From Tragulus kanchil (Eukaryota > Chordata > Mammalia > Artiodactyla > Tragulidae), in the NCBI GenBank assembly GCA_022376925.1, contig JAIOJX010000025.1:138467301-138531300 (forward strand): a stretch of 64,000 nt of DNA, given 5' to 3'. The translations under genes were made by a program, and so were the position numbers. This document shows, in pieces, positions 1 to 62,532 of the stretch; the stretch's first letter is position 1; every line of letters begins with the position of its first letter. The notes below the pieces were generated by a model, which was given only the letters and a program-made list of their open reading frames with translations, had not been told where the DNA came from and searched no databases.

Positions 1-180
1 AGACTTCATGAATGGGATGAGAGCCTTGTAGATGTGACTCTAGAGAGCTCTCTGGCCCCTTTGTCGTGTAAGAATACAAGCCTGCAGCCCCGAAGAGGGC
101 CCTCACCTGGGCACGCTGGCACTCTCATCTGACTTCCAGCCTCCAGAACTGAGAAGCACATTTTTTATAAATTCCCCCAA

Positions 181-391
181 GGTGGCGCTAGTGGTAAAGA
201 ACTGGCCTGCTGCTGCAAGAGATATAAGAGATACAGGTTCTAACACTGGGTCAGGAAGATCCCCTGGAGAAGGAAATGGCAGCCCACTCCAGTATTCTTG
301 CCTGGAGAATCCCATGGACTGAGGAGTCTGTTGGGCTACAGTCCATGGAGTCATAGAGTCAGACACGACTGAAGCGACTTTGCACACAGAC
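181..391 (+). mobile_element. Bov-tA SINE
   Basis: A tRNA-like head (gctagtggtaaagaac, box-B-like caggttctaac) followed by the BovA body (cccactccagtattcttgcc, then gtcagacacgactgaagcga). Confidence 0.9.
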
Positions 392-1348
392 AGCAGCAAG
401 CTGCCCCAACCCTGTATGTGGTCCTTTGTTATACCAACCCAAGCAGACTGACACAGACCATCCCAGGGACATTTTTTTTTTTAATGTAAGAATTTTGGCA
501 TGAAATTGGTGGTTGATTTAGATTACCTTCCAATCCTGGTATCCAATGCAGGATGACTTTTGAGAATAAAGGAAGGAGAAAAGCAGATACAATAACTATG
601 AAGTCAGTCGTCTTGACTCTTTTTTGTTAACGCAGTTAACCTCCCTTCCTTGGTGGCCTCAGAGAGCCACAGTGTAACAAATTTCATTATGATGAGTCTG
701 ACTCGGCAAAAAAAAGATTAACTTAATGTTTTCTCTGCTCTGCTGTTTAGAGAAAGTTATCAAAAAAATGTTCTGACTGTTCATGAACTTTCTCTTTTCT
801 ATTTAGATTTTGTTTACTGTCATCAGAAAATATAATAAGTACATGACATGAGCCCTAAAAGAAACTATTAGGCTTTCTCAGCTAGCATTGGATGAGCAAA
901 ATAGCAAAATGTGAAGCTATGAGAAATGAGGCCTTCTTAATCCAGATTCATTCTTAGGAGAACATTGGGCTTTCTTCCAGAGCTGGAATCTTATGCTCCC
1001 TAAGGGCAGAAACCATGTCTTAATTATCTTTGAATTGAAGACTATGCCTGAGGAGGCATATTATAAATATTTAATGATTTGGTGGATTAGACTGGATGGG
1101 CATCCTAATGCCCAGTGTGATGTTATTAGGAAGTGGGACCTTTGGGTAGTGCTGAGTCATGAGGGCAAAGACTTCATGAATGGGATGAGAGCCTTGTAGA
1201 TGTGACTCTAGAGAGCTCTCTGGCCCCTTTGTCGTGTAAGAATACAAGCCTGCAGCCCGAAGAGGGCCCTCACCTGGGCACGCTGGCACTCTCATCTGAC
1301 TTCCAGCCTCCAGAACTGAGAAGCACATTTTTTATAAATTCCCCCAAG

Positions 1349-1559
1349 GTGGCGCTAGTGGTAAAGAACTGGCCTGCTGCTGCAAGAGATATAAGAGATA
1401 CAGGTTCTAACACTGGGTCAGGAAGATCCCCTGGAGAAGGAAATGGCAGCCCACTCCAGTATTCTTGCCTGGAGAATCCCATGGACTGAGGAGTCTGTTG
1501 GGCTACAGTCCATGGAGTCATAGAGTCAGACACGACTGAAGCGACTTTGCACACAGACA
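1349..1559 (+). mobile_element. Bov-tA SINE (D1 second copy)
   Basis: Near-identical to the element at 181-391, as part of duplication D1. Confidence 0.9.
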
Positions 1560-1994
1560 GCACGCAAGCTGCCCCAACCCTGTATGTGGTCCTTTGTTAT
1601 ACCAACCCAAGCAGACTGACACAGACCATCCCAGGGACATTTTTTTTTTTAATGTAAGAATTTTGGCATGAAATTGGTGGTTGATTTAGATTACCTTCCA
1701 ATCCTGGTATCCAATGCAGGATGACTTTTGAGAATAAAGGAAGGAGAAAAGCAGATACAATAACTATGAAGTCAGTCGTCTTGACTCTTTTTTGTTAACG
1801 CAGTTAACCTCCCTTCCTTGGTGGCCTCAGAGAGCCACAGTGTAACAAATTTCATTATGATGAGTCTGACTCGGCAAAAAAAAGATTAACTTAATGTTTT
1901 CTCTGCTCTGCTGTTTAGAGAAAGTTATCAAAATCATTTACAAAGGGATTTCATGAAAAGTGGCCAACGTAATGTGAGGGTATACTTTTGTTAG

Positions 1995-2178
1995 GGCTTC
2001 CCCAATGGCACAGTCGGTAAAAAATCTGCCTGCACTGCAGGAGACCTGGGTTTGATCCCTTGGAAATGGCAACCCACTCCAGTATTCTTGCCTGAGAAAT
2101 CCCATCGACATAGAAGCCTGGAGGGCTATATAGTTCATGGGGTCGCAGACTCATACATGACTCAGCGACTAAACCACC
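1995..2178 (+). mobile_element. Bov-tA SINE with internal deletion
   Basis: Complete head with the ttccccaatggcacag start and box B ggtttgatccc. About 25 bp are missing between box B and the cccactccag body. It ends in a diverged gactcagcgact. Confidence 0.85.
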
Positions 2179-2561
2179 ACTGTACTTCCATTAACTCAAA
2201 AAATCTGCTGCTTTCTAATGGTCAGATAAAGCCAGTTTTTTGCAAGAACTGCTTCTACTGACTGTCATATGAACAACGCATTCTTGTCTGCCCTAATCTT
2301 TCATATAATATGAACATTAGGGAATAGTCATAGTTAGACACAGCATACACGTGCTGGAAAAATTCAGGTCCAAGACGGAAGAGTGGAAAGAATAACCTTA
2401 GGTTCACAAATGGAGTAAGACAAAGTGGCCAAGCAATGGGGTCACAGACCAGAGTGAAGGATCATAAGGAAGAAAACTTTCTGGCCTTTTTGAATCTACT
2501 GACAGCTTCTGGGTCTCCCTTGCAAAAAACTGTTGTATGATCTCCTTATAAAAAGCAGACC

Positions 2562-2673
2562 CAGGACTTCAGTGGTCGTCCAGTGGTTAAGACTCTATGC
2601 TTCTGCTGCAGAGGGGTGGGTTAGATCCCTGGTCAAGATCCCTCATGCTGCGTGGTGCCACCAAAAAATAAAA
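2562..2673 (+). mobile_element. Short tRNA-derived SINE
   Basis: Head (cagtggttaagactc, box B ggttagatccctgg) joined directly to an A-rich tail near 2665. A truncated element abutting the next SINE. Copied at about 3701-3811 by D2. Confidence 0.65.
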
Positions 2674-2685
2674 TTAGAAAAAGTA

Positions 2686-2960
2686 GGGCTTCCCTGGTGG
2701 GCCAGTGGGTGGAGAGTCTGCCTTGGAGTGCCAGGGGCACCTGTTTGATCCCTGGCCAGGGAGGATCCCGCGTGCTGCGGAGTGGCTGGACCAGTGTGTC
2801 CAGTTGCAAGCCGGCTGTCTGGAGTGCATGCTCCCAGAGCCAGTGCTCTATGGTGAGAGGGGCCACTGCAATGGGAAGCCCACACAGGCCAAATAATAAA
2901 AGATGGATGGAAATAAATATAAAAATAAAAAGAGAGGCATGATTGGGAATAAAAAATAAA
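2686..2960 (+). mobile_element. tRNA-derived ruminant SINE (no BovA body)
   Basis: Begins gggcttccctggtgg, box B gtttgatccctgg, body ending caggccaaataataaa, with a long A-rich tail. Copied at 3824-4098 by D2. Confidence 0.8.
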
Positions 2961-2995
2961 AAAATAAAGAAGAAAAAGCAGGAGCAGATTTTGCA

Positions 2996-3112
2996 CCAGA
3001 GGTCGGCAAACATTCTGTACAGGGCCAGATGGAAAATATTTTAAGCTCTGTTGCACCACCTCAGTGCAAAAGAAGCTGTGTTCCAGTAAAACTTTACTTA
3101 CCAAACCAGGTG
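2996..3112. mobile_element. MER5A-like DNA transposon fragment
   Basis: Matches the hAT/MER5A landmarks aggtcggcaaac, agggccagatgg and ttccagtaaaactt, with an internal deletion. Copied at about 4133-4249. Confidence 0.65.
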
Positions 3113-3142
3113 TGGGCTGAACCTTGTTTTAGAGAATTACCT

Positions 3143-3420
3143 GGATTTTTTAAAACTGAGGTGTAGTTGATGTACAGTCTTGTGCCGATCTCTGCTGTAC
3201 AGCAGTGTGAGTCAGTTACATACCTACATACATTCTTGTTTCAGATTCTTCTCCATTATGGTTTAATCACACAATCTTGAATATAGTCCCTGGTGCTATA
3301 CGTTTGGACCTTGCTGTTTATCCATTCTAATGAAATGGATAGCTTGCATCTACCAACCCCAGACTCCCAGGTCATCCTCTTCTTCCCTCTCCACCCCATT
3401 GGCAACCACAGTCTGTTTAG
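3143..3420. mobile_element. L1 fragment (artiodactyl type)
   Basis: Contains the common artiodactyl L1-end blocks gtgtagttgatgtacag, ctccattatggttta and ttggcaaccacag. Copied at about 4280-4557 by D2. Confidence 0.6.
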
Positions 3421-3823
3421 AGAATTACCTGGATTTTTGAAATTGTATGCCACTTCCCGTGGTCAGCAGCAAGTATGTTAGTTACATATCTTTCAGACTA
3501 ACAGAGGATAACTATTTTCTGTACCTTGTCACCTTTCCCTTTTTCTGTCTTCCTCTTCTCTGTCTCTTAGGAGCTGCCCAATATCTACCCGTAGTTCAGT
3601 CCTGGCCCAGTATGGAAATCAATTTTCTTTATTAAGCAGGAGATATATAAGGAGCATCAAGTCAGCCTTGTTGCTGGGTCTTCTTTCACTGTGTCAGACC
3701 CAGGACTTCAGTGGTCGCCAGTGGTTAAGACTCTATGCTTCTGCTGCAGAGGGGTGGGTTAGATCCCTGGTCAAGATCCCTCATGCTGCGTGGTGCCACC
3801 AAAAAATAAAATTAGAAAAAGTA

Positions 3824-4098
3824 GGGCTTCCCTGGTGGGCCAGTGGGTGGAGAGTCTGCCTTGGAGTGCCAGGGGCACCTGTTTGATCCCTGGCCAGGGA
3901 GGATCCCGCGTGCTGCGGAGTGGCTGGACCAGTGTGTCCAGTTGCAAGCCGGCTGTCTGGAGTGCATGCTCCCAGAGCCAGTGCTCTATGGTGAGAGGGG
4001 CCACTGCAATGGGAAGCCCACACAGGCCAAATAATAAAAGATGGATGGAAATAAATATAAAAATAAAAGAGAGGCATGATTGGGAATAAAAAATAAAA
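3824..4098 (+). mobile_element. tRNA-derived SINE (D2 second copy)
   Basis: Repeat of 2686-2960 with one A fewer in the tail. It is followed by the second MER5A-like (4133-4249) and L1 (4280-4557) pieces. Confidence 0.8.
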
Positions 4099-4627
4099 AA
4101 ATAAAGAAGAAAAAGCAGGAGCAGATTTTGCACCAGAGGTCGGCAAACATTCTGTACAGGGCCAGATGGAAAATATTTTAAGCTCTGTTGCACCACCTCA
4201 GTGCAAAAGAAGCTGTGTTCCAGTAAAACTTTACTTACCAAACCAGGTGTGGGCTGAACCTTGTTTTAGAGAATTACCTGGATTTTTTAAAACTGAGGTG
4301 TAGTTGATGTACAGTCTTGTGCCGATCTCTGCTGTACAGCAGTGTGAGTCAGTTACATACCTACATACATTCTTGTTTCAGATTCTTCTCCATTATGGTT
4401 TAATCACACAATCTTGAATATAGTCCCTGGTGCTATACGTTTGGACCTTGCTGTTTATCCATTCTAATGAAATGGATAGCTTGCATCTACCAACCCCAGA
4501 CTCCCAGGTCATCCTCTTCTTCCCTCTCCACCCCATTGGCAACCACAGTCTGTTTAGAGAATTACCTGGATTTTTGAAATTGTATGCCACTTCCCGTGGT
4601 CAGCAGCAAGTATGTTAGTTACATATC

Positions 4628-6778
4628 TTTCAGACTAACAGAGGATAACTATTTTCTGTACCTTGTCACCTTTCCCTTTTTCTGTCTTCCTCTTCTCTGT
4701 CTCTTAGGAGCTGCCCAATATCTACCCGTAGTTCAGTCCTGGCCCAGTATGGAAATCAATTTTCTTTATTAAGCAGGAGATATATAAGGAGCATCAAGTC
4801 AGCCTTGTTGCTGGGTCTTCTTTCACTGTGTACTTAGTTTCAGGGCTTGGATGCCTACCTTGGAGTCCTCCGGGTGCCCTACATCCTCCAAGATTGGCAT
4901 TCTGCCAACCCCAGCCATTGGTGTAACTCTAGCCTCATACAACATTGGGCACTTTATTGAAACAAAACCAAGATAATCAACTTTTGTTGTTGAGAGCCTT
5001 CCATGTGCTAGACACTGGTATATGTCCATGAATCAGAGCATATGATAGCTCCCTTTGTTGGCAAAGTACTGTGTTACGTGTGCACTGTGCTATGTGTGGA
5101 TTACTGATGGAGAAATAACTCAAACACAATTTTAAGAATCCACAGTAAAACTTAATTGAACCTATAGCCTGATGCTTCTTTGTTACAAATGCCGCCTCAT
5201 GATCATCATTATAAACTTCGGTTCTAAAAATATGGTGTGCTATTTTCTAAATAAAGGGAAACCTTTCATCAAGTCAGCTAGGGGAAGGCACATACCAGAA
5301 TTCGGGGACTTGTTTTCACCCCATTGCTTCTATGGATGTCTCACTCTTCATTGTCTCTCCAGGTGTGTAATTCCCTCTCCCCAGTACTCAGTTCCTTTAT
5401 GGATGCAGAAACAACTAATAGGATAAAACTTGGAGCAAATAAAGTCATAAAAATGAATATAGCAATGTAAGTATTTCTTGGACAAAGAAAGGCATGCCCT
5501 CATGTTTGCTCCTGCACTATACAGTGTACTGATTGTCTTTCTTAGTGTCTTTTATCTTCCCTTTAAAGCTTGAAAATAGTCTACTTCCTTCCCATCTGTT
5601 CACCACGTTGATTGCTCTGGGCTGGTAGGAGTTTCTTCAACATAAGGCTTTTTCCTGCTCTTGATTTAAATAGTCCCTTACATAATCCCAGCTGATTTAT
5701 TGTTTCAGACTAACAGAGGATAACTATTTTCTGTACCTTGTCACCTTTCCCTTTTTCTGTCTTCCTCTTCTCTGTCTCTTAGGAGCTGCCCAATATCTAC
5801 CCGTAGTTCAGTCCTGGCCCAGTATGGAAATCAATTTTCTTTATTAAGCAGGAGATATATAAGGAGCATCAAGTCAGCCTTGTTGCTGGGTCTTCTTTCA
5901 CTGTGTACTTAGTTTCAGGGCTTGGATGCCTACCTTGGAGTCCTCCGGGTGCCCTACATCCTCCAAGATTGGCATTCTGCCAACCCCAGCCATTGGTGTA
6001 ACTCTAGCCTCATACAACATTGGGCACTTTATTGAAACAAAACCAAGATAATCAACTTTTGTTGTTGAGAGCCTTCCATGTGCTAGACACTGGTATATGT
6101 CCATGAATCAGAGCATATGATAGCTCCCTTTGTTGGCAAAGTACTGTGTTACGTGTGCACTGTGCTATGTGTGGATTACTGATGGAGAAATAACTCAAAC
6201 ACAATTTTAAGAATCCACAGTAAAACTTAATTGAACCTATAGCCTGATGCTTCTTTGTTACAAATGCCGCCTCATGATCATCATTATAAACTTCGGTTCT
6301 AAAAATATGGTGTGCTATTTTCTAAATAAAGGGAAACCTTTCATCAAGTCAGCTAGGGGAAGGCACATACCAGAATTCGGGGACTTGTTTTCACCCCATT
6401 GCTTCTATGGATGTCTCACTCTTCATTGTCTCTCCAGGTGTGTAATTCCCTCTCCCCAGTACTCAGTTCCTTTATGGATGCAGAAACAACTAATAGGATA
6501 AAACTTGGAGCAAATAAAGTCATAAAAATGAATATAGCAATGTAAGTATTTCTTGGACAAAGAAAGGCATGCCCTCATGTTTGCTCCTGCACTATACAGT
6601 GTACTGATTGTCTTTCTTAGTGTCTTTTATCTTCCCTTTAAAGCTTGAAAATAGTCTACTTCCCTTCCCATCTGTTCACCACGTTGATTGCTCTGGGCTG
6701 GTAGGAGTTTCTTCAACATAAGGCTTTTTCCTGCTCTTGATTTAAATAGTCCCTTACATAATCCCAGCTGATTTATTG
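4628..6778 (+). repeat. Duplication D3 (copies 4628-5702 and 5703-6778)
   Basis: Offset 1075-1076, with one visible 1-bp indel (cttcc/cttccc near 6660). Its left copy starts inside the right copy of D2, so about 204 bp are present three times (3491-3694, 4628-4831, 5703-5906). No recognised repeat or gene lies in the unit. Confidence 0.95.
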
Positions 6779-7720
6779 TTTTAACTTCTTAATCCTCTTC
6801 TTATTGGTATTGGTAAATGTCCTTGATGCCACTGAGCAGTTTAGGTATGGAGACTGAAATGGCCCCTAGCTCCTTTATAAAAAGCATGTGTAGCCTTTTT
6901 TGTATATACTTCACCTTGAATGGTGATCTGGCCTTTTCCAGTTGAATAGCAAGTGTATATCAATTGTTTGATTAGAAAAGATGTTCTGAGCACTGTAATT
7001 GGAGAGAGTAGAGTCCACTTGAAATGTGTTGCTGTGTCGGAAAAGGAATAGACTCCAAGTCAAAAGATCTGCAGCCATCTTGCTTTATGACCTTGTTTGG
7101 GCTGGGTTGTTTTTTTTTTCCCCTAGAAAATGAATGGACTGAATTGAAGATGCTTAGGACCACCTACCTTAGAGAGTTAAGCAGGTGCAGTCTGGTTCCC
7201 AAGATCTCTACAAATGCTCCAAATTTCTCACTTTTTTGTATTAGATTTCTATATAAAATGTTTTAGAAAAAGGTTTGCCGATCTAGAAGTATTTGAAAGC
7301 ACCTCTAAGCACCTCTTCCAGTTGTGATTTTTGTGAGCCAAAGACTTTGGAACAAAATGTAAGAAGATATATAAGCACAAGCTAAGTATATGACATAGAA
7401 TCTCCATCAGTCATTCAACTTTCATTAGTTTCCTTGCAGATTGGAGAATATTACAGCTCCTGAACACTGTCTTATCTTCAGTTAGGTATGCCGTGGATTT
7501 CGATCAAAGCTTATGTGAAAGTTTATATGCTGGTAATCATAGAAGACATAAGACTTACTGTTGCTAAGCATTGCTAATAGAATTCCATTTAATAAAGATA
7601 GTCATTCTTATGTTGCTGACTTATTTTATTTCCAGGTTGTTTTCCTATATACCATGATATTTTAACATAGTTTTTAACACACACACAGATTTATATTCTG
7701 GCTTTTTATTTAATCTTAGA
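4832..7720. other. Non-coding stretch, D3 plus unique sequence
   Basis: Apart from the D3 copies, no gene, splice-supported exon or confident repeat is visible. The 84-residue frames at 5172-5426 and 6247-6501 are the same duplicated chance ORF. Confidence 0.6.
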
Positions 7721-8400: not shown

Positions 8401-9042
8401 AATTACAGATGATCCAAGGTAATAATAAAGCACTATTAAGTACTTAAAGGATTTGATCATATTCCATTTAAAAAGATAGAATGGAATCTCCTATGCATCT
8501 ATTTATTAAGGTATTCCATGGGTATACCCTGCTGTCACTCTGTAATTCCCTGTTATAAAGCACTTATAAGACTATATGATAATTGTCTGTCTGTTTTCCT
8601 CTTCTCCACAGTAGATGTTAACTTTCCTGGGTCAGGAAGACTGTCTAGTTTAATCACTCATATCGTCAGCTCCTGGTGGGACTCAAGTACTTGCTGAGTG
8701 GCTAGAATGAATAGGCCACACAAGGGAGAGAACGAATGGGGCACTGTCCTGGGCTCCTGATGGTCTCATTCTGGTGTCCTGTATATGACTTTCTGCAAAG
8801 TTGATGCCTTATCCTGACTTTCCACACATTTTATACAGGAGAAAACCTCAGATAAAAGAAAATGCTCTAAATCCTTTAGAAATAGTACTGCAAGAATCAC
8901 AGTTGGAATCATATCAGACTAACACTATATCCTCTGCTTTGATAATCTTTTATGTTTTGACTCAAATCATACAGTAATTACATATAACTAGACTAGATAA
9001 TCTACTTTTATGTTGGTAGGGTATAATTAGTATCGTCCCTAT

Positions 9043-9243
9043 GGGCTTCCCTGTGGCTCAGAAGGTAAAGAATCTGCTTGCAATGTGAGAGACCTGAGTT
9101 GGAAAGGTCCCCTGGAGGAGGGAATGGCAAGCCACTCCAGTATTCTTGCCTGGAGAATCCCATGGACAAAGGAGCCTAGTAGGCTACAGTCCATAGCGTC
9201 TCAGAGTCAGACATGACTGAGTGACTAACGCTTACTTACTTAC
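9043..9243 (+). mobile_element. Bov-tA SINE
   Basis: Head gggcttccctgtggctcag, BovA body with ccactccagtattcttg and gtcagacatgactgag. D4 repeats it at 10179-10379. Confidence 0.9.
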
Positions 9244-10178
9244 AGGGTTCGAAGTGTGCCTTATAGAGTGGGTCAGATTATATAAAAACATGGTGTTGGG
9301 AGGTGGGGCAGTGAGGTTATTTCAGGTGACAAAAGAGTATGAGAAAAGGAAAACAGAATGACTGGAGCCAAGGTTTGGTGCCAGGAAGTTATAGAAAATA
9401 AAGAGTATAGATAGATCAAAGGCAAATAATGAAGGGTCTTAAATGCCAAGTACAGATGTATGCATAGATACTAGGAAGCAGTATAAATCTTTAATACGAT
9501 GAATGATGTAATAAATGTGATGTCTTAGGGATATCTATCTATAGCAATATGTAGGCTGTATTAAAATGTGGAGAGTTTGTGAGAGGAATATCAGCCAGGA
9601 GGCAGTTGTGACATATTTGTAAGATGACTAGTAAAAGTGGAAAAGGAGGCAGGTGATAGTAAGTGCTCACATAGACTGTAATTCCCTGTTATAAAGCACT
9701 TATAAGACTATATGATAATTGTCTGTCTGTTTTCCTCTTCTCCACAGTAGATGTTAACTTTCCTGGGTCAGGAAGACTGTCTAGTTTAATCACTCATATC
9801 GTCAGCTCCTGGTGGGACTCAAGTACTTGCTGAGTGGCTAGAATGAATAGGCCACACAAGGGAGAGAACGAATGGGGCACTGTCCTGGGCTCCTGATGGT
9901 CTCATTCTGGTGTCCTGTATATGACTTTCTGCAAAGTTGATGCCTTATCCTGACTTTCCACACATTTTATACAGGAGAAAACCTCAGATAAAAGAAAATG
10001 CTCTAAATCCTTTAGAAATAGTACTGCAAGAATCACAGTTGGAATCATATCAGACTAACACTATATCCTCTGCTTTGATAATCTTTTATGTTTTGACTCA
10101 AATCATACAGTAATTACATATAACTAGACTAGATAATCTACTTTTATGTTGGTAGGGTATAATTAGTATCGTCCCTAT

Positions 10179-10379
10179 GGGCTTCCCTGTGGCTCAGAAG
10201 GTAAAGAATCTGCTTGCAATGTGAGAGACCTGAGTTGGAAAGGTCCCCTGGAGGAGGGAATGGCAAGCCACTCCAGTATTCTTGCCTGGAGAATCCCATG
10301 GACAAAGGAGCCTAGTAGGCTACAGTCCATAGCGTCTCAGAGTCAGACATGACTGAGTGACTAACGCTTACTTACTTAC
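10179..10379 (+). mobile_element. Bov-tA SINE (D4 second copy)
   Basis: Same as 9043-9243 at offset 1136, with no visible differences. Confidence 0.9.
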
Positions 10380-11089
10380 AGGGTTCGAAGTGTGCCTTAT
10401 AGAGTGGGTCAGATTATATAAAAACATGGTGTTGGGAGGTGGGGCAGTGAGGTTATTTCAGGTGACAAAAGAGTATGAGAAAAGGAAAACAGAATGACTG
10501 GAGCCAAGGTTTGGTGCCAGGAAGTTATAGAAAATAAAGAGTATAGATAGATCAAAGGCAAATAATGAAGGGTCTTAAATGCCAAGTACAGATGTATGCA
10601 TAGATACTAGGAAGCAGTATAAATCTTTAATACGATGAATGATGTAATAAATGTGATGTCTTAGGGATATCTATCTATAGCAATATGTAGGCTGTATTAA
10701 AATGTGGAGAGTTTGTGAGAGGAATATCAGCCAGGAGGCAGTTGTGACATATTTGTAAGATGACTAGTAAAAGTGGAAAGAAAGGAGTAAATACAAGGAA
10801 CACAACCTTAAGGTGATAGATGTGCAGCCTCAATAATTTGTTTTTTTTTTTGAGAAAACAGAAAATCCAGCCTAAAATTCATGTAGCATCTCAAGAGACT
10901 AATCTGAATAGCCAAAACAATCTTGAAAAAGAACAAAGTTGGAGGTCTTACACTTCCTGATTTTAAAAGTTCCTACAGAGTTACAGTAATCATGACCCTG
11001 TGGTCCTGGCGCAAAGACAGACAGAGAGAGCAATGAATGTGATGGAGAGCCCAGAAACAGGCCCTCACATATATGGTCAGGTGATTTTT

Positions 11090-11349
11090 TTTGTGGGCGG
11101 GGCACTTCTATTGGTCTTTCATTTACTTATCTTTGTTCTTTGGCCTGTGTAGGCTTCCCATCGCAGTGGCCTCTCTTGCTGCAGAGCACCGGCTCTGGGC
11201 GCATGCACTCCAGAGCTCCAACTCGGTAGTGGGACACATCGGTCCAGCTGATGTGCAATACGTGGGATCTTCCCAGGCCAGGGATCAAACCAGCACCCCT
11301 TGCACCACAAGGCGGTGTCCTTACCCACTGGACCACCAGGGAAACCCTA
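11090..11349 (-). mobile_element. tRNA-derived SINE nested in L1
   Basis: Reverse-oriented SINE ending ccaccagggaaaccc. Flanked by gtcaggtgattttt (11076-11089) and gtcagatgattttt (11350-11363), a target-site duplication with one mismatch. Confidence 0.9.
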
Positions 11350-11509
11350 GTCAGATGATTTTTAACAGTGCTGCCAAGACCATTCAGTGGGGAAAGGAGT
11401 CTTTCCACAATAGGGAGAAAAGTAAATATCCACATGCAAAAAATGAAGGACTCACACCATTGATAGACAAATAGATAAATAAAATGTGAGCTATACAAAC
11501 AACAGCATT

Positions 11510-11794
11510 TTTTTTTCTATTTTTTTAAAAATTTCTGGCCTCTTCTCATTGACTTTCCATCCATTCATTTTCATCCATCATTATTCTTTGGCCTGTGTGG
11601 GCTTCCCATTGCAGTGGCCTTTCCCGTTGCAGAGCATTGGTTCTGGATACATGCACTCCAGAGTGCTGGCTCCTAATTGGACACACCAGTCTGGCACTCC
11701 TCAGCATATGGGATCTTCCTGAGCCAGGGATGGAACTAGTGCCCCTTGCACTACAAGGCGGTCTCTTTACCCACTGGGCCACTAGGGAAGCCCC
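11510..11794 (-). mobile_element. Second tRNA-derived SINE nested in the same L1
   Basis: Reverse-oriented SINE flanked by perfect 11-bp repeats acaacagcatt (11499-11509 and 11795-11805). Confidence 0.9.
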
Positions 11795-12160
11795 ACAACA
11801 GCATTATTATTCAGTCTTTAAAAGTAATGACGTTCTGACACACATATGAATGAACCTTGAAACATGATGTTACATGAAAGAAGCCACTCATGAAAGAAGA
11901 AAAGCTATATAATGCCTCCTATATGGTGTACCTAGAGGGTTCAAATTCCTAAGGACAGAAAGAATGGTGGTTGCCAGGGCCCAGGGATGGGAGAAGCAGG
12001 GAGTTACTGTTTAATGGTTACAGATTTCAATTTGGGGAAATGAAACAATTCTGAAGATGGATGGTAGTTTTGGTTGCACAACAGTAAATGTATTTAATGC
12101 CAGTGAACTATATATTTAGAAATTATTAAAATGGTAAATTTATGCTATGTATATTTTGGT

Positions 12161-15245: not shown

Positions 15246-15362
15246 CAGGTGCCCCGGTTGTCTCTGACTCTTTGGGACTCTATGGACCACAGCCTGCCAG
15301 GCTCCTACATCCATGGGATTCTCTAGGCAAGAATACTGGAGTGGGTCAAATACTGGAGTGGG
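15246..15362 (-). mobile_element. BovA-type SINE fragment
   Basis: Reverse BovA landmarks: tctctgactctttgggac, ccaggctcctacatcc, caagaatactggagtggg (the last partly repeated). Copied at about 16310-16426. Confidence 0.8.
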
Positions 15363-15424
15363 TTGAAACTCTTTGGATTTGAATCCTTATATAATTAAAT
15401 TGATTCATATCCATAAACACGGAC

Positions 15425-15545
15425 CAAGAATCTGCAGTGTCCTGGGCAGGCACTGTGTTTACCTGACATCATCTCATTTATCCTTCACCGTGGCCTTGGG
15501 AGAAGAATGTCCCCATGTTCAATTTACCGATTTGGAAAAGGACAT
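15425..15545 (-). mobile_element. MIR-like fragment
   Basis: A reversed MIR-like pattern (catctcatttatcc, ttcaatttaccgatttgg), diverged. Repeated at about 16489-16609 by D6. Confidence 0.35.
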
Positions 15546-48930: not shown

Positions 48931-48942
48931 AAAACAAGTGTG

Positions 48943-49200
48943 GGGCTTCCCTGGTGGTCCAGTGGGTAAGGACACCACCTTGCAGTGCAAGGGGCGCCGG
49001 TTCAATCCCTGGCCTGGGAAGATCCCACGTGCCGCAGAGCGGCTGGACTGATGTGTCCAACTACCGAGCCAGAGGTCTGGAACGCATGCGCCCAGGGCAG
49101 GTGCTCTGCAGCGACAGAGGCCACTGTGATGGGAGACCCACACAGGCCAAAGAACAAAGATGGAAATAAATGAAAGGCCAATAGAAGTGGCCAAAAAAAA
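48943..49200 (+). mobile_element. tRNA-derived SINE with perfect target-site duplication
   Basis: Flanked by identical aaaacaagtgtg (48931-48942 and 49201-49212). Complete head, body and A tail. Confidence 0.93.
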
Positions 49201-51332
49201 AAAACAAGTGTGATTGCGAGACTGATTGTACTGCCTGAAGAGATCACCATCCTTTATTTGTAGTTTCAAACTCCCAATGATTCTTTGTAAGTTTGGTGCA
49301 AATTCATTTGTTAGCATTAAAATGAATATAAATGTTTTCTAGAAATACTGCATTTGATTGTAAAGTGCTGTTGCACACACCCCTGGGGTTTTAATATGCC
49401 TCTTTACAATCTGAAAACCTCTGATTTCTAAAGCACATCTGACTCTAAGGGAACAGTCGATTTGTATATCGAGTGTCTGTTTTGTGTCAGGCATCGTGTG
49501 CAGAGCAATTGCCTGAATCTTGTAATTTTACTAATTTAAGAGGAATTCTATAGTGCTTTCCTTAGCACTGGAACAGCAGAATACTTTTGAGAAGAAGCTG
49601 TTTAGTTGACTAGAACTACACTCTGGTAATGTAAACTCATGCTTACTGAGCAGCGTGCTCCAGAATTTAGAGGAGAAATTTAAAGTGTATAAAAATGTGG
49701 TACCTAAAGAAACCTCACAACATTTGAAAGAGATAGTAAAGGCATTGTTTCCCAAAGTGTTCAGAGGAGCATTAGTCATGATGGATATTCAGAAAGTCAA
49801 GTTTGGCCACACTGTGTATTCTCAGCTCTTTTGGAGCACAATACTGGTATCAGCGTATTAAAAAACTCTGAAAGGTCCCATAGTGAAGAAGCAAGTTTAA
49901 CTTTGTTTTCCATGGATTGTCAGGTGGACTGGTCTTTGAATAAGAACTTGGCACTGACCCCCTGAGAGCACAATCTCAGAAACTCCAGACTAAGACATGA
50001 TGCTCTGAATGAACTATGAGAGGAAATTCTGTTTCTTATTTGGGAATGTACTCTATAAATCTAATGCAGAGAAATTGTATGCTTTGATTATTTTAGGTTT
50101 AAAAATGAGAATGTAAGAGTTGCATCCTCTTGACAAATGGAAAAAATGAGTTTTTTTGAGTCTTCTGTATCCCTGGCCTGGGAAGATCCCACGTGCCATG
50201 GAGTGGCTGGACCGATGTGTCCAACTACCGAGCTAGAGGTCTGGAACGCATGCGCCCAGGGCAGGTGCTCTGCAGCGACAGAGGCCACTGTGATGGGAGA
50301 CCCACACAGGCCAAAGAACAAAGATGGAAATAAATGAAAGGCCAATAGAAGTGGCCAAAAAAAAAAAAACAAGTGTGATTGCGAGACTGATTGTACTGCC
50401 TGAAGAGATCACCATCCTTTATTTGTAGTTTCAAACTCCCAATGATTCTTTGTAAGTTTGGTGCAAATTCATTTGTTAGCATTAAAATGAATATAAATGT
50501 TTTCTAGAAATACTGCATTTGATTGTAAAGTGCTGTTGCACACACCCCTGGGGTTTTAATATACCTCTTTACAATCTGAAAACCTCTGATTTCTAAAGCA
50601 CATCTGACTCTAAGGGAACAGTCGATTTGTATATCGAGTGTCTGTTTTGTGTCAGGCATTGTGTGCAGAGCAATTGCCTGAATCTTGTAATTTTACTAAT
50701 TTAAGAGGAATTCTATAGTGCTTTCCTTAGCACTGGAACAGCAGAATACTTTTGAGAAGAAGCTGTTTAGTTGACTAGAACTACACTCTGGTAATGTAAA
50801 CTCATGCTTAAATTTAAAGTGTATAAAAATGTGGTACCTAAAGAAACCTCACAACATTTGAAAGAGATAGTAAAGGCATTGTTTCCCAAAGTGTTCAGAG
50901 GAGCATTAGTCATGATGGATATTCAGAAAGTCAAGTTTGGCCACACTGTGTATTCTCAGCTCTTTTGGAGCACAATACTGGTATCAGCGTATTAAAAAAC
51001 TCTGAAAGGTCCCATAGTGAAGAAGCAAGTTTAACTTTGTTTTCCATGGATTGTCAGGTGGACTGGTCTTTGAATAAGAACTTGGCACTGACCCCCTGAG
51101 AGCACAATCTCAGAAACTCCAGACTAAGACATGATGCTCTGAATGAACTATGAGAGGAAATTCTGTTTCTTATTTGGGAATGTACTCTATAAATCTAATG
51201 CAGAGAAATTGTATGCTTTGATTATTTTAGGTTTAAAAATGAGAATGTAAGAGTTGCATCCTCTTGACAAATGGAAAATGAATCAGATTTGCTTGACTTG
51301 CACAGTGATTTTTAATTTTTAGAGTCTTCTGT
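49005..51332 (+). repeat. Duplication D15 (49005-50168 and 50169-51332)
   Basis: Offset 1164. Copy 1 lacks about 35 bp near 50145 that copy 2 has (51270-51320). Copy 2 lacks about 31 bp after 50808 that copy 1 has (49648-49678). Copy 2 starts in the middle of a SINE. Confidence 0.93.
50169..50365 (+). mobile_element. Same SINE lacking its head (D15 second copy)
   Basis: Matches 49005-49200 but begins abruptly within box B (atccctggcctgggaag), with no left-hand target-site duplication. The right-hand acaagtgtg is present. Confidence 0.9.
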
Positions 51333-53314
51333 ATAAACCAGCAATTATGATGATGTAGCCATCAAATGATTATGTAATTATATCCATGAAATAATGGATA
51401 GTGAGCTTTTTCTAAATGAAAAAAAAATTCCCTAAAGTAATTATTGGATGACAAAAATAAATTAATTCAATTCAGTACTTAAAGAATGAAAATTATTGTG
51501 ATCCCTCAAGCAGTGTACATGCAGATATAGGTTTTATCACATGAAAATTATGGCACAAAGATGCTGAAACATAAATAAGATGTAATACCCACTGCTGTTT
51601 TTCCTATAAACTCAGCGTAACCATTTAAGATGGTAAATATCCACAGAGGTGGGTAAGCAGTTGTTTCATAGCAATTAAGACACAGAATCAGGATTCGGGC
51701 CAGCTGCTCTTGTCCCTGGGGCCCACACATTTAACCCCTAACTAGTAGAGCTGCAGTCAGTAAAACAAAATAAATAAATTTAGCAGAAATAACATTTCTT
51801 TCTTCTCCTTTCCCTCTTCTCCCCACTGCCCCAGCCATCCAACAAGAGTAGATTTCTGTTGGAAAATTGTAAAGTGCCATCCTAAATATCCTAATGTTAG
51901 AGAATACCTTGCCAAGACCTGCTCCTTCTACATGACTGTTGTGTTTTGGAATATTTCAGATTAGCACTGCAGAAGTGCTGTCTTACTATGTCGTAAAAAT
52001 TGCTTTGATCTTTTTGACCCCATCTATGCAAAAATAGTCACAATAACAGTGTCATTATTGGTTAAGAAAATAGCTGCTGGTGATGACCATGTACTTAATC
52101 CAGTTGATTCTGTGGAGACACGTGTTAATTCAGCTGCCAAATCATAAATTGATCATAAAGTAGTTTACTGAATGGTATTGTCAGACATATGCTCAGGTTT
52201 TCATAATGGTTGTTTAGAAACTCCAGACTAAGACATGATGCTCTGAATGAACTATGAGAGGAAATTCTGTTTCTTATTTGGGAATGTACTCTATAAATCT
52301 AATGCAGAGAAATTGTATGCTTTGATTATTTTAGGTTTAAAAATGAGAATGTAAGAGTTGCATCCTCTTGACAAATGGAAAATGAATCAGATTTGCTTGA
52401 CTTGCACAGTGATTTTTAATTTTTAGAGTCTTCTGTATAAACCAGCAATTATGATGATGTAGCCATCAAATGATTATGTAATTATATCCATGAATTAATG
52501 GATAGTGAGCTTTTCTAAATGAAAAAATTCCCTAAAGTAATTATTGGATGACAAAAATAAATTAATTCAATTCAGTACTTAAAGAATGAAAATTATTGTG
52601 ATCCCTCAAGCAGTGTACATGCAGATATAGGTTTTATCACATGAAAATTATGGCACAAAGATGCTGAAACATAAATAAGATGTAATACCCACTGCTGTTT
52701 TTCCTATAAACTCAGCGTAACCATTTAAGATGGTAAATATCCACAGAGGTGGGTAAGCAGTTGTTTCATAGCAATTAAGACACAGAATCAGGATTCGGGC
52801 CAGCTGCTCTTGTCCCTGGGGCCCACACATTTAACCCCTAACTAGTAGAGCTGCAGTCAGTAAAACAAAATAAATAAATTTAGCAGAAATAACATTTCTT
52901 TCTTCTCCTTTCCCTCTTCTCCCCACTGCCCCAGCCATCCAACAAGAGTAGATTTCTGTTGGAAAATTGTAAAGTGCCATCCTAAATATCCTAATGTTAG
53001 AGAATACCTTGCCAAGACCTGCTCCTTCTACATGACTGTTGTGTTTTGGAATATTTCAGATTAGCACTGCAGAAGTGCTGTCTTACTATGTCGTAAAAAT
53101 TGCTTTGATCTTTTTGACCCCATCTATGCAAAAATAGTCACAATAACAGTGTCATTATTGGTTAAGAAAATAGCTGCTGGTGATGACCATGTACTTAATC
53201 CAGTTGATTCTGTGGAGACACGTGTTAATTCAGCTGCCAAATCATAAATTGATCATAAAGTAGTTTACTGAATGGTATGGTCAGACATATGCTCAGGTTT
53301 TCATAATGGTTGTT
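51112..53314 (+). repeat. Duplication D16 (51112-52215 and 52216-53314)
   Basis: Offset 1104 falling to 1100 through A- and T-run length changes near 51415/52515. It overlaps D15, so the segment starting agaaactccagac is present at 49976, 51112 and 52216. Confidence 0.95.
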
Positions 53315-53752: not shown

Positions 53753-53766
53753 CTGAGGTTTGTTCT

Positions 53767-55950
53767 AAAGTTAATCTTGGGAAATTAATTAACTGCCACA
53801 GTCAATAATAAAATAATCATAAAAATAAACTTTTGAATTTTATTTAAAATTTAAAAATATTTCCAGGAACATTAATTAATTCTGGAAATGAGGATGAGGG
53901 AAATTTTGTTTTATAATTGAAACATCACCAAACACTAAGACTTAAAAGCAGGCTTCTGTGTTATAATTCCTCCTCCAAAGAAAGATTGATGTTCCTAGAA
54001 TTTAGATTTTTTTTTTTTTCCATAGTCAGAGGAATGGTTATTGGTTGGAGAGTTTAGGTAGGTTTTGCTGTTCTTTTACCTTCCTGGTAATACATAAGGC
54101 ATAGATGAAATAGCTTTTCCCAAGTAATTTATGAGAAGGGTGTTATCTGACATCTGGACTTTGATATGTCTTCTAGGATGATGTGTGTGAACTTATGCCA
54201 GGTGATTGCCCATATAATGTGCAGCACAAAGTGCTAGCCTAGTTGGTTTACAAGCAATTCACAAATAGTCAGCTCTGCTAACAGGTTGCCTTGAAGGAGG
54301 CCATTCTGTGCTTGCATGAAGCCCCCCAAGTTCTCCAAGCTGAGACTTTCATACCCTGGGGTCCTACCCCACTCTAATCACTTTCTGCCTCCCCATCCAT
54401 ATGGATCAGTGCAGCAAATGTTTTACACAATGGCTAATACCATTCACGACACTGCGGCATTACAAAGGCCCTCATCAGCCTTCTTGGCTGACCATGTAGA
54501 CTGAGTCACCCATCAGTTAAATATTAATTTGCCTTCAGTTATGGTTAACTATGTTGGTTCCAGCTCACCTGAACCCCATCAAATCCACTTTAATTTTAGA
54601 GAAAGGGATGACTTTTTTCCCTATCAATAAACTCTAACAATCTGAAATTCCCTACTTAGTTTAAAAGCTATATTTGAGGACCCAGGCTGGAGGTAATGAT
54701 GTAATTGTAATTGATATTTTTGGAATTTTACTATGGTCTTTTAGAATATTTCCAATTAGAAAAGTTGGGGTATTTCTACAGTGGGAAGAAAAGCAACTGA
54801 TATAAATTTTACCTCTGAAATAAGTGCAATGTAGCATAAGTTGCTGTTTGACCATTTAAAGTTAATCTTGGGAAATTAATTAACTGCCACAGTCAATAAT
54901 AAAATAATCATAAAAATAAACTTTTGAATTTTATTTAAAATTTAAAAATATTTCCAGGAACATTAATTAATTCTGGAAATGAGGATGAGGGAAATTTTGT
55001 TTTATAATTGAAACATCACCAAACACTAAGACTTAAAAGCAGGCTTCTGTGTTATAATTCCTCCTCCAAAGAAAGATTGATGTTCCTAGAATTTAGATTT
55101 TTTTTTTTTTTTCCATAGTCAGAGGAATGGTTATTGGTTGGAGAGTTTAGGTAGGTTTTACTGTTCTTTTACCTTCCTGGTAATACATAAGGCATAGATG
55201 AAATAGCTTTTCCCAAGTAATTTATGAGAAGGGTGTTATCTGACATCTGGACTTTGATATGTCTTCTAGGATGATATGTGTGAACTTATGCCAGGTGATT
55301 GCCCATATAATGTGCAGCACAAAGTGCTAGCCTAGTTGGTTTACAAGCAATTCACAAATAGTCAGCTCTGCTAACAGGTTGCCTTGAAGGAGGCCATTCT
55401 GTGCTTGCATGAAGCCCCCCAAGTTCTCCAAGCTGAGACTTTCATACCCTGGGGTCCTACCCCACTCTAATCACTTTCTGCCTCCCCATCCATATGGATC
55501 AGTGCAGCAAATGTTTTACACAATGGCTAATACCATTCACGACACTGCGGCATTACAAAGGCCCTCATCAGCCTTCTTGGCTGACCATGTAGACTGAGTC
55601 ACCCATCAGTTAAATATTAATTTGCCTTCAGTTATGGTTAACTATGTTGGTTCCAGCTCACCTGAACCCCATCAAATCCACTTTAATTTTAGAGAAAGGG
55701 ATGACTTTTTTCCCTATCAATAAACTCTAACAATCTGAAATTCCCTACTTAGTTTAAAAGCTATATTTGAGGACCCAGGCTGGAGGTAATGATGTAATCG
55801 TAATTGATATTTTTGGAATTTTACTATGGTCTTTTAGAATATTTCCAATTAGAAAAGTTGGGGTATTTCTACAGTGGGAAGAAAAGCAACTGATATAAAT
55901 TTTACCTCTGAAATAAGTGCAATGTAGCATAAGTTGCTGTTTGACCATTT
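53767..55950 (+). repeat. Duplication D17 (53767-54857 and 54858-55950)
   Basis: Offset 1091-1093, differing by a T-run length change and very few substitutions. No gene recognised in the unit. Confidence 0.95.
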
Positions 55951-56130
55951 ACTATGATGCCATCAGGCCTAGAAATTAGATGACACTATTTTGAGCCTTG
56001 GACAGATATTTATTTCATCAGACAATGCCAACGATCAGTTATACAATAATGCAGTTATGTTTGTGGTACCTTACAGAATGTTTTTAGTTTCAGTTTTTAA
56101 ATTGACTCACTTTATATAAAGTCAATCCTT

Positions 56131-56352
56131 TCAAAAAAAATATATATATATATTTGTTTATTTATTTTTGGCTGTGCTGGGTCTTGGTTGTGGTACGTGG
56201 GATCTCTTGTGTCGCAGGCTTCTCTCTGGTTGTGGTAAGGGAGCTTAGTTGCCCCGTGGCATGTGGGATCTTAGTTCCCTGACCAGGGATCCCACTCAAG
56301 TCCCCTGCTTTGGAAGGTAGATTCTTAACCACTGGACCCCCAGGGAAGTCCC
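56131..56352 (-). mobile_element. tRNA-derived SINE with target-site duplication
   Basis: (AT)n-containing tail, body gtgctgggtcttggttgtgg, head ccagggaagtccc. Flanked by ataaagtcaatcctt (56116-56130) and ataaagtcaattctt (56353-56367). Confidence 0.9.
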
Positions 56353-57259
56353 ATAAAGTCAATTCTTCTAACACTTCCCAAATGTTCTGTAATGGTCTTC
56401 AAAGACTACTGATTATGATTTTTAAATTAGCCGTTGGAGACTTTACTGATGGGAATCAAAAGTAGGTTTTGTGAAAATCTCTGGCCTATACTCCTGAATA
56501 AATAATCACTGAAAACATACATTTTGAAATTGAACCCTTCAATTTTGTTGGGTTTTTTACCATTTTTAAATAATGTGATCTCAAATATACTGCACATTTC
56601 CTTGTCTCTTAAGTAATTTAACTCTTTTTTGAGGACTCCATGCCTAGCACAGTGCTTTATTTGCTATGTTATCAATCTCCTTTCCTTTTATGGGGGATAT
56701 AATATGTTGTTTTAGGGATAAATGAAGTTCAAAGGTGTGTTTGCATCTACACTAAGGATCCCAGACTGTTATCTTTTTGAAATTGTTTGTGTATTATCCA
56801 CTCCTGAAATCAATCCCTTTTAGAGAAAGGGATGACTTTTCCCTATCAATAAACTCTAACAATCTGAAATTCCCTACTTAGTTTAAAAGCTATATTTGAG
56901 GACCCAGGCTGGAGGTAATGATGTAATTGTAATTGATATTTTTGGAATTTTACTATGGTCTTTTAGAATATTTCCAATTAGAAAAGTTGGGGTATTTCTA
57001 CAGTGGGAAGAAAAGCAACTGATATAAATTTTACCTCTGAAATAAGTGCAATGTAGCATAAGTTGCTGTTTGACCATTTACTATGATGCCATCAGGCCTA
57101 GAAATTAGATGACACTATTTTGAGCCTTGGACAGACATTTATTTCATCAGACAATGCCAACGATCAGTTATACAATAATGCAGTTATGTTTGTGGTACCT
57201 TACAGAATGTTTTTAGTTTCAGTTTTTAAATTGACTCACTTTATATAAAGTCAATCCTT

Positions 57260-57481
57260 TCAAAAAATATATATATATATATTTGTTTATTTATTTTTGG
57301 CTGTGCTGGGTCTTAGTTGTGGTACGTGGGATCTCTTGTGTCGCAGGCTTCTCTCTGGTTGTGGTAAGGGAGCTTAGTTGCCCCGTGGCATGTGGGATCT
57401 TAGTTCCCTGACCAGGGATCCCACTCAAGTCCCCTGCTTTGGAAGGTAGATTCTTAACCACTGGACCCCCAGGGAAGTCCC
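57260..57481 (-). mobile_element. tRNA-derived SINE (D18 second copy)
   Basis: Copy of 56131-56352 including both target-site repeats (57245-57259 and 57482-57496). The (AT)n tail length differs slightly. Confidence 0.9.
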
Positions 57482-58234
57482 ATAAAGTCAATTCTTCTAA
57501 CACTTCCCAAATGTTCTGTAATGGTCTTCAAAGACTACTGATTATGATTTTTAAATTAGCCGTTGGAGACTTTACTGATGGGAATCAAAAGTAGGTTTTG
57601 TGAAAATCTCTGGCCTATACTCCTGAATAAATAATCACTGAAAACATACATTTTGAAATTGAACCCTTCAATTTTGTTGGGTTTTTTACCATTTTTAAAT
57701 AATGTGATCTCAAATATACTGCACATTTCTTTGTCTCTTAAGTAATTTAACTCTTTTTTGAGGACTCCATGCCTAGCACAGTGCTTTATTTGCTATGTTA
57801 TCAATCTCCTTTCCTTTTATGGGGGATATAATATGTTGTTTTAGGGATAAATGAAGTTCAAAGGTGTGTTTGCATCTACACTAAGGATCCCAGACTGTTA
57901 TCTTTTTGAAATTGGTTTGTGTAATTATATTATTTCTGCTTCCTCACTCTCTCTCACCACTGCTTAGGGGAAAATAGCTCAAACCACTTCTTCCTCACAT
58001 CAGATTTTCTGCAAACTCTTAGTAAGGCCAGAACTGCAGACCACCAGAGGAGATGAGATGACTGCCCTGAACACCATTAGCCTTTATTTCAATACGCATA
58101 TCTCTCTGTGGATCTCTGACCAGCAGAGATCTGGGGGCTTGACACTCGGTTGAGGGCTCATATCTGTGTGTTCTCAGCATTCATCTCTCCTTTCCTCCCA
58201 AAGCTCCTGACTCCAACTTCCAGGATACGTTTTT

Positions 58235-59538: not shown

Positions 59539-59710
59539 ACAAGAAGAAGGGAGGCAAATTTCAGCCTTTTAAGAAGTTGTTTGGCAAAAGGAAAAAGAAA
59601 GGCACGTCCGTGTCCCGGGAGGCGTCTGGGGGACTCAAGTGTCGCTCTCCCCCGAGGGTCAGCAATGGGACCTTCTCTTCGGACGAGGAGACTCTGGAGG
59701 AGAGCCTGAG
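59539..59710 (+). CDS. CRACD: Internal coding exon, CRACD (KIAA1211)-family N-terminal region
   Basis: A 172-bp exon preceded by a pyrimidine-containing tract ending in cacag and followed by a gtaatc donor. In the frame that starts with two bases of a split codon it encodes 56 complete codons with no stop and ends with two bases of a split Arg/Ser codon. The peptide starts with the very basic stretch KKKGGKFQPFKKLFGKRKKK, continues through a Ser-rich linker and ends in an acidic stretch (SSDEETLEES). A basic KFxxFKKxFGKKKKK-like block followed by an acidic DSEEE-like block is what I recall of the N-termini of CRACD, CRACDL and KIAA1210. CRACD inhibits F-actin capping protein in the cytoplasm. 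CRACD seems the best fit from the wording of the acidic end, but CRACDL is possible. No other exon of the gene is recognised, so the flanks are probably intron. The exon is single-copy and lies outside the artefact-like duplications. Confidence 0.55.
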
Positions 59711-60194
59711 GTAATCACTCGCACTTCTTCCCCACTCTGCCCCTACCCAGACCTTCGGCGGAGTTCCAGGTGGGGAGTGGGGTGTCAGAGGAGGCAGAGC
59801 CACCTGGGCATGGGTTCCATCTCCAATGGGAAGGTGCAGGATCAGGGTGCGTGGGGCGCTTTACCCTGAGACAGGCGCCTGGGGGAGCTGGCACACTGAT
59901 CTGCCCTCATTTGTTGGGAGAACACAGAAATCCGCGCCCTCCTCTTTCCACACTTCCTGGAGGAGGAAGGCGGCAGCTCACTGCCTTGGCTCAACCAGCT
60001 TCCTTGGATTGAAGGAGACAGTGTGGCCCGTCCAACTGCCTGGCAAGGAGAAAGGGTGCTGGTTCCTTATATTAGGGTTCACACCAAGTTCAGGATGCAG
60101 ACTGCTGGGGCACAAGGTGTCGATCTTCATACCGCTGGCCATCTCTAGCATCTTAAAAAGCTGCCTACCATGAGCCTTCAATTTCTGCTCCATG

Positions 60195-60342
60195 TTCTCT
60201 CTCTCTCCACCCCTCCCCTCTCCTCTGCTCTCCCACTCTCCCTTGCCCTCCCGTCTCCTTCCTCTCCCTCTCCTCCTCCTCCTTTCTCTCCCTGCCTCTA
60301 CTCTCTCCTCTTCTCTCTCTCTCTCTCTCTCCTCCTCCTAGA
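60195..60342 (+). repeat. Polypyrimidine (CT/CTCC) tract
   Basis: About 150 bp almost purely C and T on the plus strand, including (TC)n at 60306-60330. D19 repeats it at about 61287-61432 with small length changes. Confidence 0.9.
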
Positions 60343-61286
60343 GCACAGGCACGAAGTCTGCCTGTGACAGCGTCAAGTCCTTAGATAAGCAAGGTCAGGA
60401 GGTACTTTCTCACCTGAGTGCTTGGAACTGAAGTCAGAGATGGTTAAGCTGTGCTCCTGACAACTCTGCCGTCAGCTCCCCAAGAAGCTCTTTCCACCAC
60501 CCGCTCTGGTGTGTTTACCCTTGCGCGTTGCCCCAACATCGGGAGCCTGGCTCCGGCAAAGAGCTTGTCGCCTTCGGTGGACGTGATTGATTGGCTTGTC
60601 TGTCTCGCTCACTCAGCTGCCAGTTCCCTGAAGTCAGGAACTAGATTTTATGCAGCCTCATCTTAGGCTTTTGAAAAGTGTTTCCCATGAATGCCTGGCA
60701 AGGCATTAAGTTGCCCTAGTACATGTTGATGGCATAGATGATGTAATCTGCGGTATTCTTACTGTGTTTCAAGGACAAAGACAAAAACGTCCTCGGTGGT
60801 CTGTCTGCAAGTGTCGTGTCAGTTGCAGTTGAGCCCTGGTTACAGAATCCTGCACACGAACCTTTACGGGGCCCATGACAGCATGTGTTAGTTCTAAGTG
60901 ATGCCAGCTCTTTTCCTTCACAGGCATGCATTTGTCTTCCATTGTCTTTACTACGGAAACCATTGAATTTAATGACGGGAACGATTTTGCTGGAAAGCAG
61001 AAACCCGCTAGCAGGGGCTAACAAAAGCTGGAATGTCAGTACCGGAACACAGCGCTCCCCAGGAGGAGCAGTCACTGCCTTGGCTCAACCAGCTTCCTTG
61101 GATTGAAGGAGACAGTGTGGCCCGTCCAACTGCCTGGCAAGGAGAAAGGGTGCTGGTTCCTTATATTAGGGTTCACACCAAGTTCAGGATGCAGACTGCT
61201 GGGGCACAAGGTGTCGATCTTCATACCGCTGGCCATCTCTAGCATCTTAAAAAGCTGCCTACCATGAGCCTTCAATTTCTGCTCCA

Positions 61287-61432
61287 TGTTCTCTCTCTCC
61301 ACCCGTCCCCCCTCCTCTGCTCTCCCACTCTCCCTTGCCCTCCCGTCTCCTTCCTCTCCCTCTCCTCCTCCTCCTTTCTCTCCCTGCCTCTACTCTCTCC
61401 TCTTCTCTCTCTCTCTCTCTCTCCTCCTCCTA
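61287..61432 (+). repeat. Polypyrimidine tract (D19 second copy)
   Basis: Second copy of the CT-rich tract, lacking a few bases at its start (ctctctccaccc against ctctctctccaccc). Confidence 0.9.
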
Positions 61433-62532
61433 GAGCACAGGCACGAAGTCTGCCTGTGACAGCGTCAAGTCCTTAGATAAGCAAGGTCAGGAGGTACTTT
61501 CTCACCTGAGTGCTTGGAACTGAAGTCAGAGATGGTTAAGCTGTGCTCCTGACAACTCTGCCGTCAGCTCCCCAAGAAGCTCTTTCCACCACCCGCTCTG
61601 GTGTGTTTACCCGCGCGTTGCCCCAACATCGGGAGCCTGGCTCCGGCAAAGAGCTTGTCGCCCGGTGGACGTGATTGATTGGCTTGTCTGTCTCGCTCAC
61701 TCAGCTGCCATTTCCCCTGAAGTCAGGAACTAGATTTTATGCAGCCTCATCTTAGGCTTTTGAAAAGTGTTTCCCATGAATGCCTGGCAAGGCATTAAGT
61801 TGCCCTAGTACATGTTGATGGCATAGATGATGTAATCTGCGGTATTCTTACTGTGTTTCAAGGACAAAGACAAAAACGTCCTCGGTGGTCTGTCTGCAAG
61901 TGTCGTGTCAGTTGCAGTTGAGCCCTGGTTACAGAATCCTGCACACGAACCTTTACGGGGCCCATGACAGCATGTGTTAGTTCTAAGTGATGCCAGCTCT
62001 TTTCCTTCACAGGCATGCATTTGTCTTCCATTGTCTTTACTAAGGAAACCATTGAATTTAATGACGGGAACGATTTTGCTGAAAGCAGAAACAGCTAGCA
62101 CCGAACTAACCCAGTTGCTGGAATGTCAGTACTGAGGTAGAACTGAGTATTGTTCAGCATGAAATCAGGTTTGATTTTGCTTCGGCTTCTTCCCTTGCAA
62201 AATAAGAACGTGAATGTTTTTGCTTCATAGCATCAGAATGAGGTACAGATACCAAAATCTAACCAAGTAGCGATTTAATGCAAAGTCTGAGATCAGGTCT
62301 GGAAAGTTCTCCTTTGGAAGGACTGTCCCATAAAAACACTTGACTTGGTCAAGTCTCTGATTTCTTACTGAATTATATTAGACTCTTAGAAGACCCTAGA
62401 CCGTGGTCCTCTTCCCACATACGTGGCATTCCAATGACTCCTTGATGTTTTCCTTAAGGTTTTAAGTTTTATACAGCCTTGGGAAAATCTCTATATAGAT
62501 ATAACAGCTACATTTCCATTAAATATAAGTAA

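Follow-up and report, generated by a model that had tools for sequence, protein, structure and literature searches.

A stretch of 64,000 bases in the genome assembly of Tragulus kanchil (GCA_022376925.1, contig JAIOJX010000025.1, C8:138467301-138531300; hereafter, the window) contains segments of about 1.1 kb that are written twice in succession on the same strand. We conclude, with a probability of about 0.93, that these doublings are an assembly error in which overlapping pieces were joined end to end without removal of the overlap, and that they are not a biological feature. On this explanation, the window would consist of consensus pieces of about 1.9-7.3 kb that were computed separately and then strung together. 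Neighbouring pieces would share about 1.1 kb of one locus, and the shared part would have been kept twice.

The pairs were located by self-BLAST of the window, and their offsets and redundancy were taken from our own alignment of the copies. An earlier note, made from the letters alone, had claimed 19 consecutive tandem duplications. Comparison of the window with itself recovered a same-strand head-to-tail pair at all 19 places (Table 1). The 19 pairs have offsets of 1068-1180 bp; pair 1 apart, they are 96.2-100% identical across about 1.02-1.17 kb. Each offset given in the earlier note lies within 22 bp of our value, and its estimate of about 21 kb of redundant sequence agrees with the 20,650 redundant bases that we measured among the 64,000. 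Inside the window, copy 1 of pair 1 comprises only 765 bases. When 3 kb of flanking sequence was added on each side, pair 1 was complete and a 20th pair, absent from the earlier note, was found to straddle the window end. The window consists solely of A, C, G and T, with no N letters. Therefore, the pairs are not seams at scaffold gaps.

The pairs are arranged as a tiling. At all 19 window pairs, the stretch between two junctions opens with a copy of the final 1.1 kb or so of the preceding stretch. In six window pieces, which are 1898-2046 bp in size, the copy at the start and the unit at the end overlap by 179-356 bp; the longest pieces reach 7285 bp. Because successive units overlap in this manner, the pairs chain: for example, 2556-3694/3695-4831 is followed by 4628-5705/5703-6781. 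It had been proposed that the units have only their length in common. The near-constant length is correct. However, successive units overlap at the six places mentioned above, and several units contain common interspersed repeats. The junctions hold up to 52 unmatched bases, and local alignments clip the worst ends. From the tiling, together with the distribution of indels described below, the seams appear to be piece boundaries.

The pattern is not special to this window and occurs elsewhere in the assembly, which comprises 3,167,203,957 bases in 32 contigs. From 15 of the 32 contigs we took 20 stretches, each 10 kb long and placed at round coordinates; the stretches were picked before they were viewed, and the 15 contigs were taken from those with matches to a window query bearing a short interspersed element (SINE). 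These 15 contigs measure 73-297 Mb, which points to a low number of chromosomes. Of the 200,000 bases sampled, 928 are N, leaving 199,072 readable bases. The N letters (65-274 each) lie in five stretches (L009, L010, L017, L021 and L023) and may be masking or assembly gaps. Pairs of about 1.1 kb were found in 19 of the 20 stretches and on 14 of the 15 contigs, 42 pairs in total. Redundant bases amount to 42,501 of 199,072 (21%), or about 24% when the window is included (263 kb). The SINE-bearing query (601 bases) gave 2,656 candidate matches, of which 40 were scored; 37 of these lie outside the window. Of the 37 outside matches listed, 18 can be grouped into nine twins on the same strand, with a spacing of 1004-1157 bp; these twins lie on eight other contigs. 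C4, the contig without a pair in its sampled stretch, carries a twin of this query. Subtraction of 21-24% from 3.167 Gb leaves about 2.4-2.5 Gb. For the unit length, we used only complete pairs (18 in the window and 35 outside) and excluded those cut at stretch ends. The mean offset of the 53 complete pairs is 1114.5 bp (SD, 35.2; range, 1046-1212).

The copies of the 53 complete pairs were aligned, and the unit was divided into three zones (first 110 bp, last 110 bp and middle) for measurement of polarity. The 174 indel events, 81 of them within homopolymers, are concentrated at the ends of the unit: the outer 20% holds 124. Among the 44 indel-bearing pairs, 37 have more than 20% of their own indels in the outer 20%. 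This region is also enriched in substitutions (57 of 161). Moreover, the indels are polarised. Within 110 bp of the unit start, it is mostly copy 2, where a piece would start, that lacks bases (44 events versus 12); within 110 bp of the unit end, it is mostly copy 1, where a piece would end (53 events versus 13). In the middle of the unit, the missing-base events are nearly even (29 versus 23). The event-level p values (5e-48 and 5e-11) are overstated, because the events cluster within pairs (22 in one pair). When each pair was counted once, polarity was 18:3 at the unit start (32 ties, p = 0.0015) and 4:21 at the unit end (28 ties, p = 0.0009), and 15:11 in mid-unit (27 ties, p = 0.56).

Where few reads cover the ends of a consensus piece, bases are lost there. 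We know of no reason why duplicated DNA should lose bases in opposite copies at opposite ends. Thus, indels heaped and polarised at the unit ends fit pieces whose consensus was computed independently and whose ends are rich in errors; they do not fit duplication of DNA. Unmerged overlaps in the assembly had already been inferred in the earlier note, and the tiling, the pairs in 19 of 20 arbitrary stretches and the polarised indels at piece ends support that explanation. The alternative named there, an unknown kind of templated duplication, found no support. Such a process, if real, would act across the genome and, at intervals of 3 to 5 kb, add a tandem copy of about 1.1 kb of adjacent sequence. 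The doubled letters are indeed present in the assembly, and the window junctions contain no N. However, the polarisation of indels to piece ends has no biological reading that we know of, the pairs occur at arbitrary places on 14 of the 15 sampled contigs, with a twin on C4 as well, and a real process would enlarge the genome by about a fifth. We consider it extremely improbable.

The substitutions bear on another alternative, namely a haplotype (heterotype) false duplication, in which the two parental alleles are placed in succession. In the 53 pairs there are 161 substitutions (93 transitions and 68 transversions). Between the copies of window pairs 2-6 there are no substitutions, whereas pairs 7-19 have 2-20 each, and this resembles a mixing of alleles. 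Allele differences between pieces may lie behind the substitutions in pairs 7-19, and a switch from homozygous to heterozygous sequence near 17-18 kb possibly explains the contrast with pairs 2-6. However, 16 of the 53 pairs have no substitution and five are identical, so that the differences expected of alleles are absent from these pairs. The ratio of 93:68 is low by the usual yardstick for mammalian alleles. Furthermore, neither a single fixed length nor a gathering of indels at the ends of pieces is produced by allelic duplication. A haplotype duplication is therefore very improbable as the source of the doublings.

The doublings can be compared with known false duplications. A Vertebrate Genomes Project report describes homotype false duplications, which arise from overlaps at contig boundaries (PMC8081667). 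As in that type, one locus stands twice in tandem, the overlap at a piece boundary is unmerged and the copies differ in consensus quality. In contrast, the copies described there often have the length of corrected reads and a scaffolding gap lies between them, whereas the unit here is fixed at about 1.1 kb and recurs every few kb. Here we found tandem copies at apparent piece boundaries and differences of the consensus-error kind and, in the window, no assembly gap between the copies. The mechanism is that of a homotype overlap duplication, but in a gap-free form that is not a textbook member of the type. The redundant share is also larger here. In six vertebrate assemblies, false duplications made up 0.3-15.9% and homotype duplications at most 2.7% (PMC9516828). 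In the present case, the share is about 24% across the 263 kb and 21% when the window is set aside.

The earlier note had left the fixed unit length unexplained; a fixed-length vertex of the wtdbg type is added here as its likely cause. The pieces probably come from a wtdbg- or wtdbg2-type long-read assembly. In wtdbg2, each edge of the graph receives its own consensus, which extends from one vertex to the next; adjacent vertices overlap by at most 256 bp by default, and normal output should merge neighbouring edge consensuses. Each edge consensus would start and end with a whole vertex; if the edges were left unjoined, the vertex would be doubled at the seam, and the shortest step would be about three quarters of a vertex. 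Thus wtdbg2 should normally merge its pieces, whereas those proposed here would be unmerged. According to published accounts, wtdbg2 slices reads into 1024-bp segments, which are the vertices of its fuzzy Bruijn graph (PMC10989838, PMC7506008). Such a graph would supply a fixed segment of about 1 kb common to neighbouring pieces. Because the unit length is near that of a 1024-bp vertex, we propose that edge-wise pieces were concatenated without merging of the shared vertex. The match is loose: the mean unit is 1.09 x 1024 bp (9% above). The start-to-start steps have a minimum of 777 bp among 35, as is expected if vertices overlap by at most the default 256 bp. The pairs, their tiling, the fixed length, the occurrence in nearly all sampled stretches and the indels at piece ends are observed, whereas the program and the reason for the failed merging are inferred.

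Two other sources of a fixed length may be considered. In a de Bruijn graph, unitigs overlap by a fixed length, and the exact k-mer overlaps, raw or homopolymer-compressed, might have been left untrimmed. However, the overlaps here are inexact, because 48 of the 53 pairs differ, and their length is variable. Homopolymer compression raises this variation (coefficient of variation, 4.1% versus 3.1%), and we rejected a homopolymer-compressed overlap on this basis. The chance that unitig overlaps explain the pairs is very small. Fixed-size polishing chunks with 1-kb overlaps were likewise rejected, because the pieces span 1898-7285 bp.

The main rival to the wtdbg explanation is gap patching. Patches that bridged short contigs, with about 1 kb of each flank included, may have been inserted untrimmed. 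This too is an artefact of unmerged pieces, and it competes with the wtdbg origin and not with the artefact itself. It would also double about 1.1 kb on both sides of each patch. When the pieces along the window are numbered from position 1169, five of the six shortest (1898-2046 bp) share one parity in the alternation; as an informal count, this is only suggestive. On the other hand, gap patching requires that gaps recur at intervals of a few kb through much of the assembly, given 42 pairs in 200 kb, and patch flanks are expected at one set length, whereas 1046-1212 bp is observed. We therefore consider gap patching unlikely.

Several points weigh against unmerged pieces in general or against their wtdbg-type origin in particular. 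Stretch L012 (G000:C4:15000001-15010000) has no pair, the sole such case among the 20; it may be one long piece. When the 18 complete window pairs are taken by themselves, polarity at the unit end is weak (3:5), while the start gives 8:0; in the sampled stretches, the end gives 1:16 per pair and the start 10:3 (p = 0.09). At seven junctions, the unmatched bases were compared with the degraded flanks expected, and no clear correspondence emerged: all lie above the null mean, but only one at 1 in 60. With respect to wtdbg, a unit of 1.09 x 1024 bp requires that the reads have a net excess of deletions or that the consensus spreads past the vertex edges. The overlaps in the seven shortest pieces are 74-356 bp, and 356 bp exceeds the 256-bp bound even when this is scaled by 1.09. 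Quantisation of the steps is not significant in the Rayleigh test (with a quarter unit as the period, p is about 0.16; with 256 bp, about 0.36), and the short steps average 0.80 unit, not 0.75. Users can choose the vertex length themselves, and two projects worked with 1536 (PMC11931762) or 1536-2560 (PMC11087460). A benchmark credits wtdbg2 with seemingly fewer artefactual duplications (PMC8178825). Finally, a narrow literature search found no description of this exact fault among the titles and abstracts listed.

The doublings have no biological significance. If the sampled density is general, an extrapolation from 42 pairs in 200 kb gives several hundred thousand seams, and about a fifth of this chromosome-scale assembly of 3.17 Gb would be false. 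Apparent duplications of exons, tandem repeats and gains in gene families read from it would then be wrong, as would estimates of repeat content and genome size. Same-strand self-matches at 1.05-1.21 kb with end-polarised indels provide a simple test, which is applicable to other assemblies.

Table 1. Tandem pairs and tRNA-like SINEs, in window numbering.
Feature	Copy 1 or position	Copy 2	Identity	Offset (bp)	Remarks
Pair 1	(-403)-765	766-1933	99.5% full length	1168 or 1169	junction 765/766
Pair 2	2556-3694	3695-4831	99.8%	1139	0 substitutions, 2 gaps
Pair 3	4628-5705	5703-6781	99.9%	1075	204 bp overlap with pair 2
Pair 4	8540-9643	9676-10779	100%	1136	32 unmatched junction bases
Pair 5	12620-13730	13730-14831	99.1%	1110	differences all within first ~70 bp
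Pair 6	14639-15666	15707-16728	99.4%	1068	40 unmatched junction bases; 193 bp overlap with pair 5
Pair 7	18506-19638	19635-20767	99.0%	1129	
Pair 8	20412-21532	21536-22674	97.0%	1124	356 bp overlap with pair 7
Pair 9	23073-24160	24156-25252	98.1%	1083	
Pair 10	30368-31440	31444-32516	98.1%	1076	20 substitutions, 0 gaps
Pair 11	33679-34788	34785-35869	96.6%	1106	indels mainly in first ~90 bp
Pair 12	37725-38845	38846-39965	99.0%	1121	
Pair 13	40736-41819	41823-42902	98.4%	1087	
Pair 14	42671-43838	43851-45018	99.1%	1180	232 bp overlap with pair 13
Pair 15	49005-50154	50169-51290	96.2%	1164	one 31-bp gap
Pair 16	51112-52214	52216-53314	99.5%	1104	179 bp overlap with pair 15
Pair 17	53766-54858	54857-55951	99.5%	1091	
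Pair 18	55687-56797	56818-57928	99.2%	1131	265 bp overlap with pair 17
Pair 19	59973-61042	61068-62132	97.8%	1095	
Pair 20	63197-64253	64304-65361	99.1%	1107	copy 1 crosses window end
tRNA-like SINEs	2683-2918, 11085-11363, 11509-11808, 18253-18539, 22499-22772, 25436-25710, 27719-28002, 40113-40402, 48927-49207				self-BLAST

The window has 38 open frames of at least 110 codons; of these, 10 were searched against Pfam, and none gave a match. At the gathering score, Rfam gave no match in the window. Self-BLAST revealed a family of tRNA-like SINEs of about 240-290 bp, which are present in both orientations and share about 74-85% identity with one another (Table 1). We take these elements to resemble the CHR-type elements of even-toed ungulates. 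Short words that we presume to belong to BovB/Bov-tA, CHR-type and MIR elements match the window with 1-8 mismatches, and this suits a ruminant.

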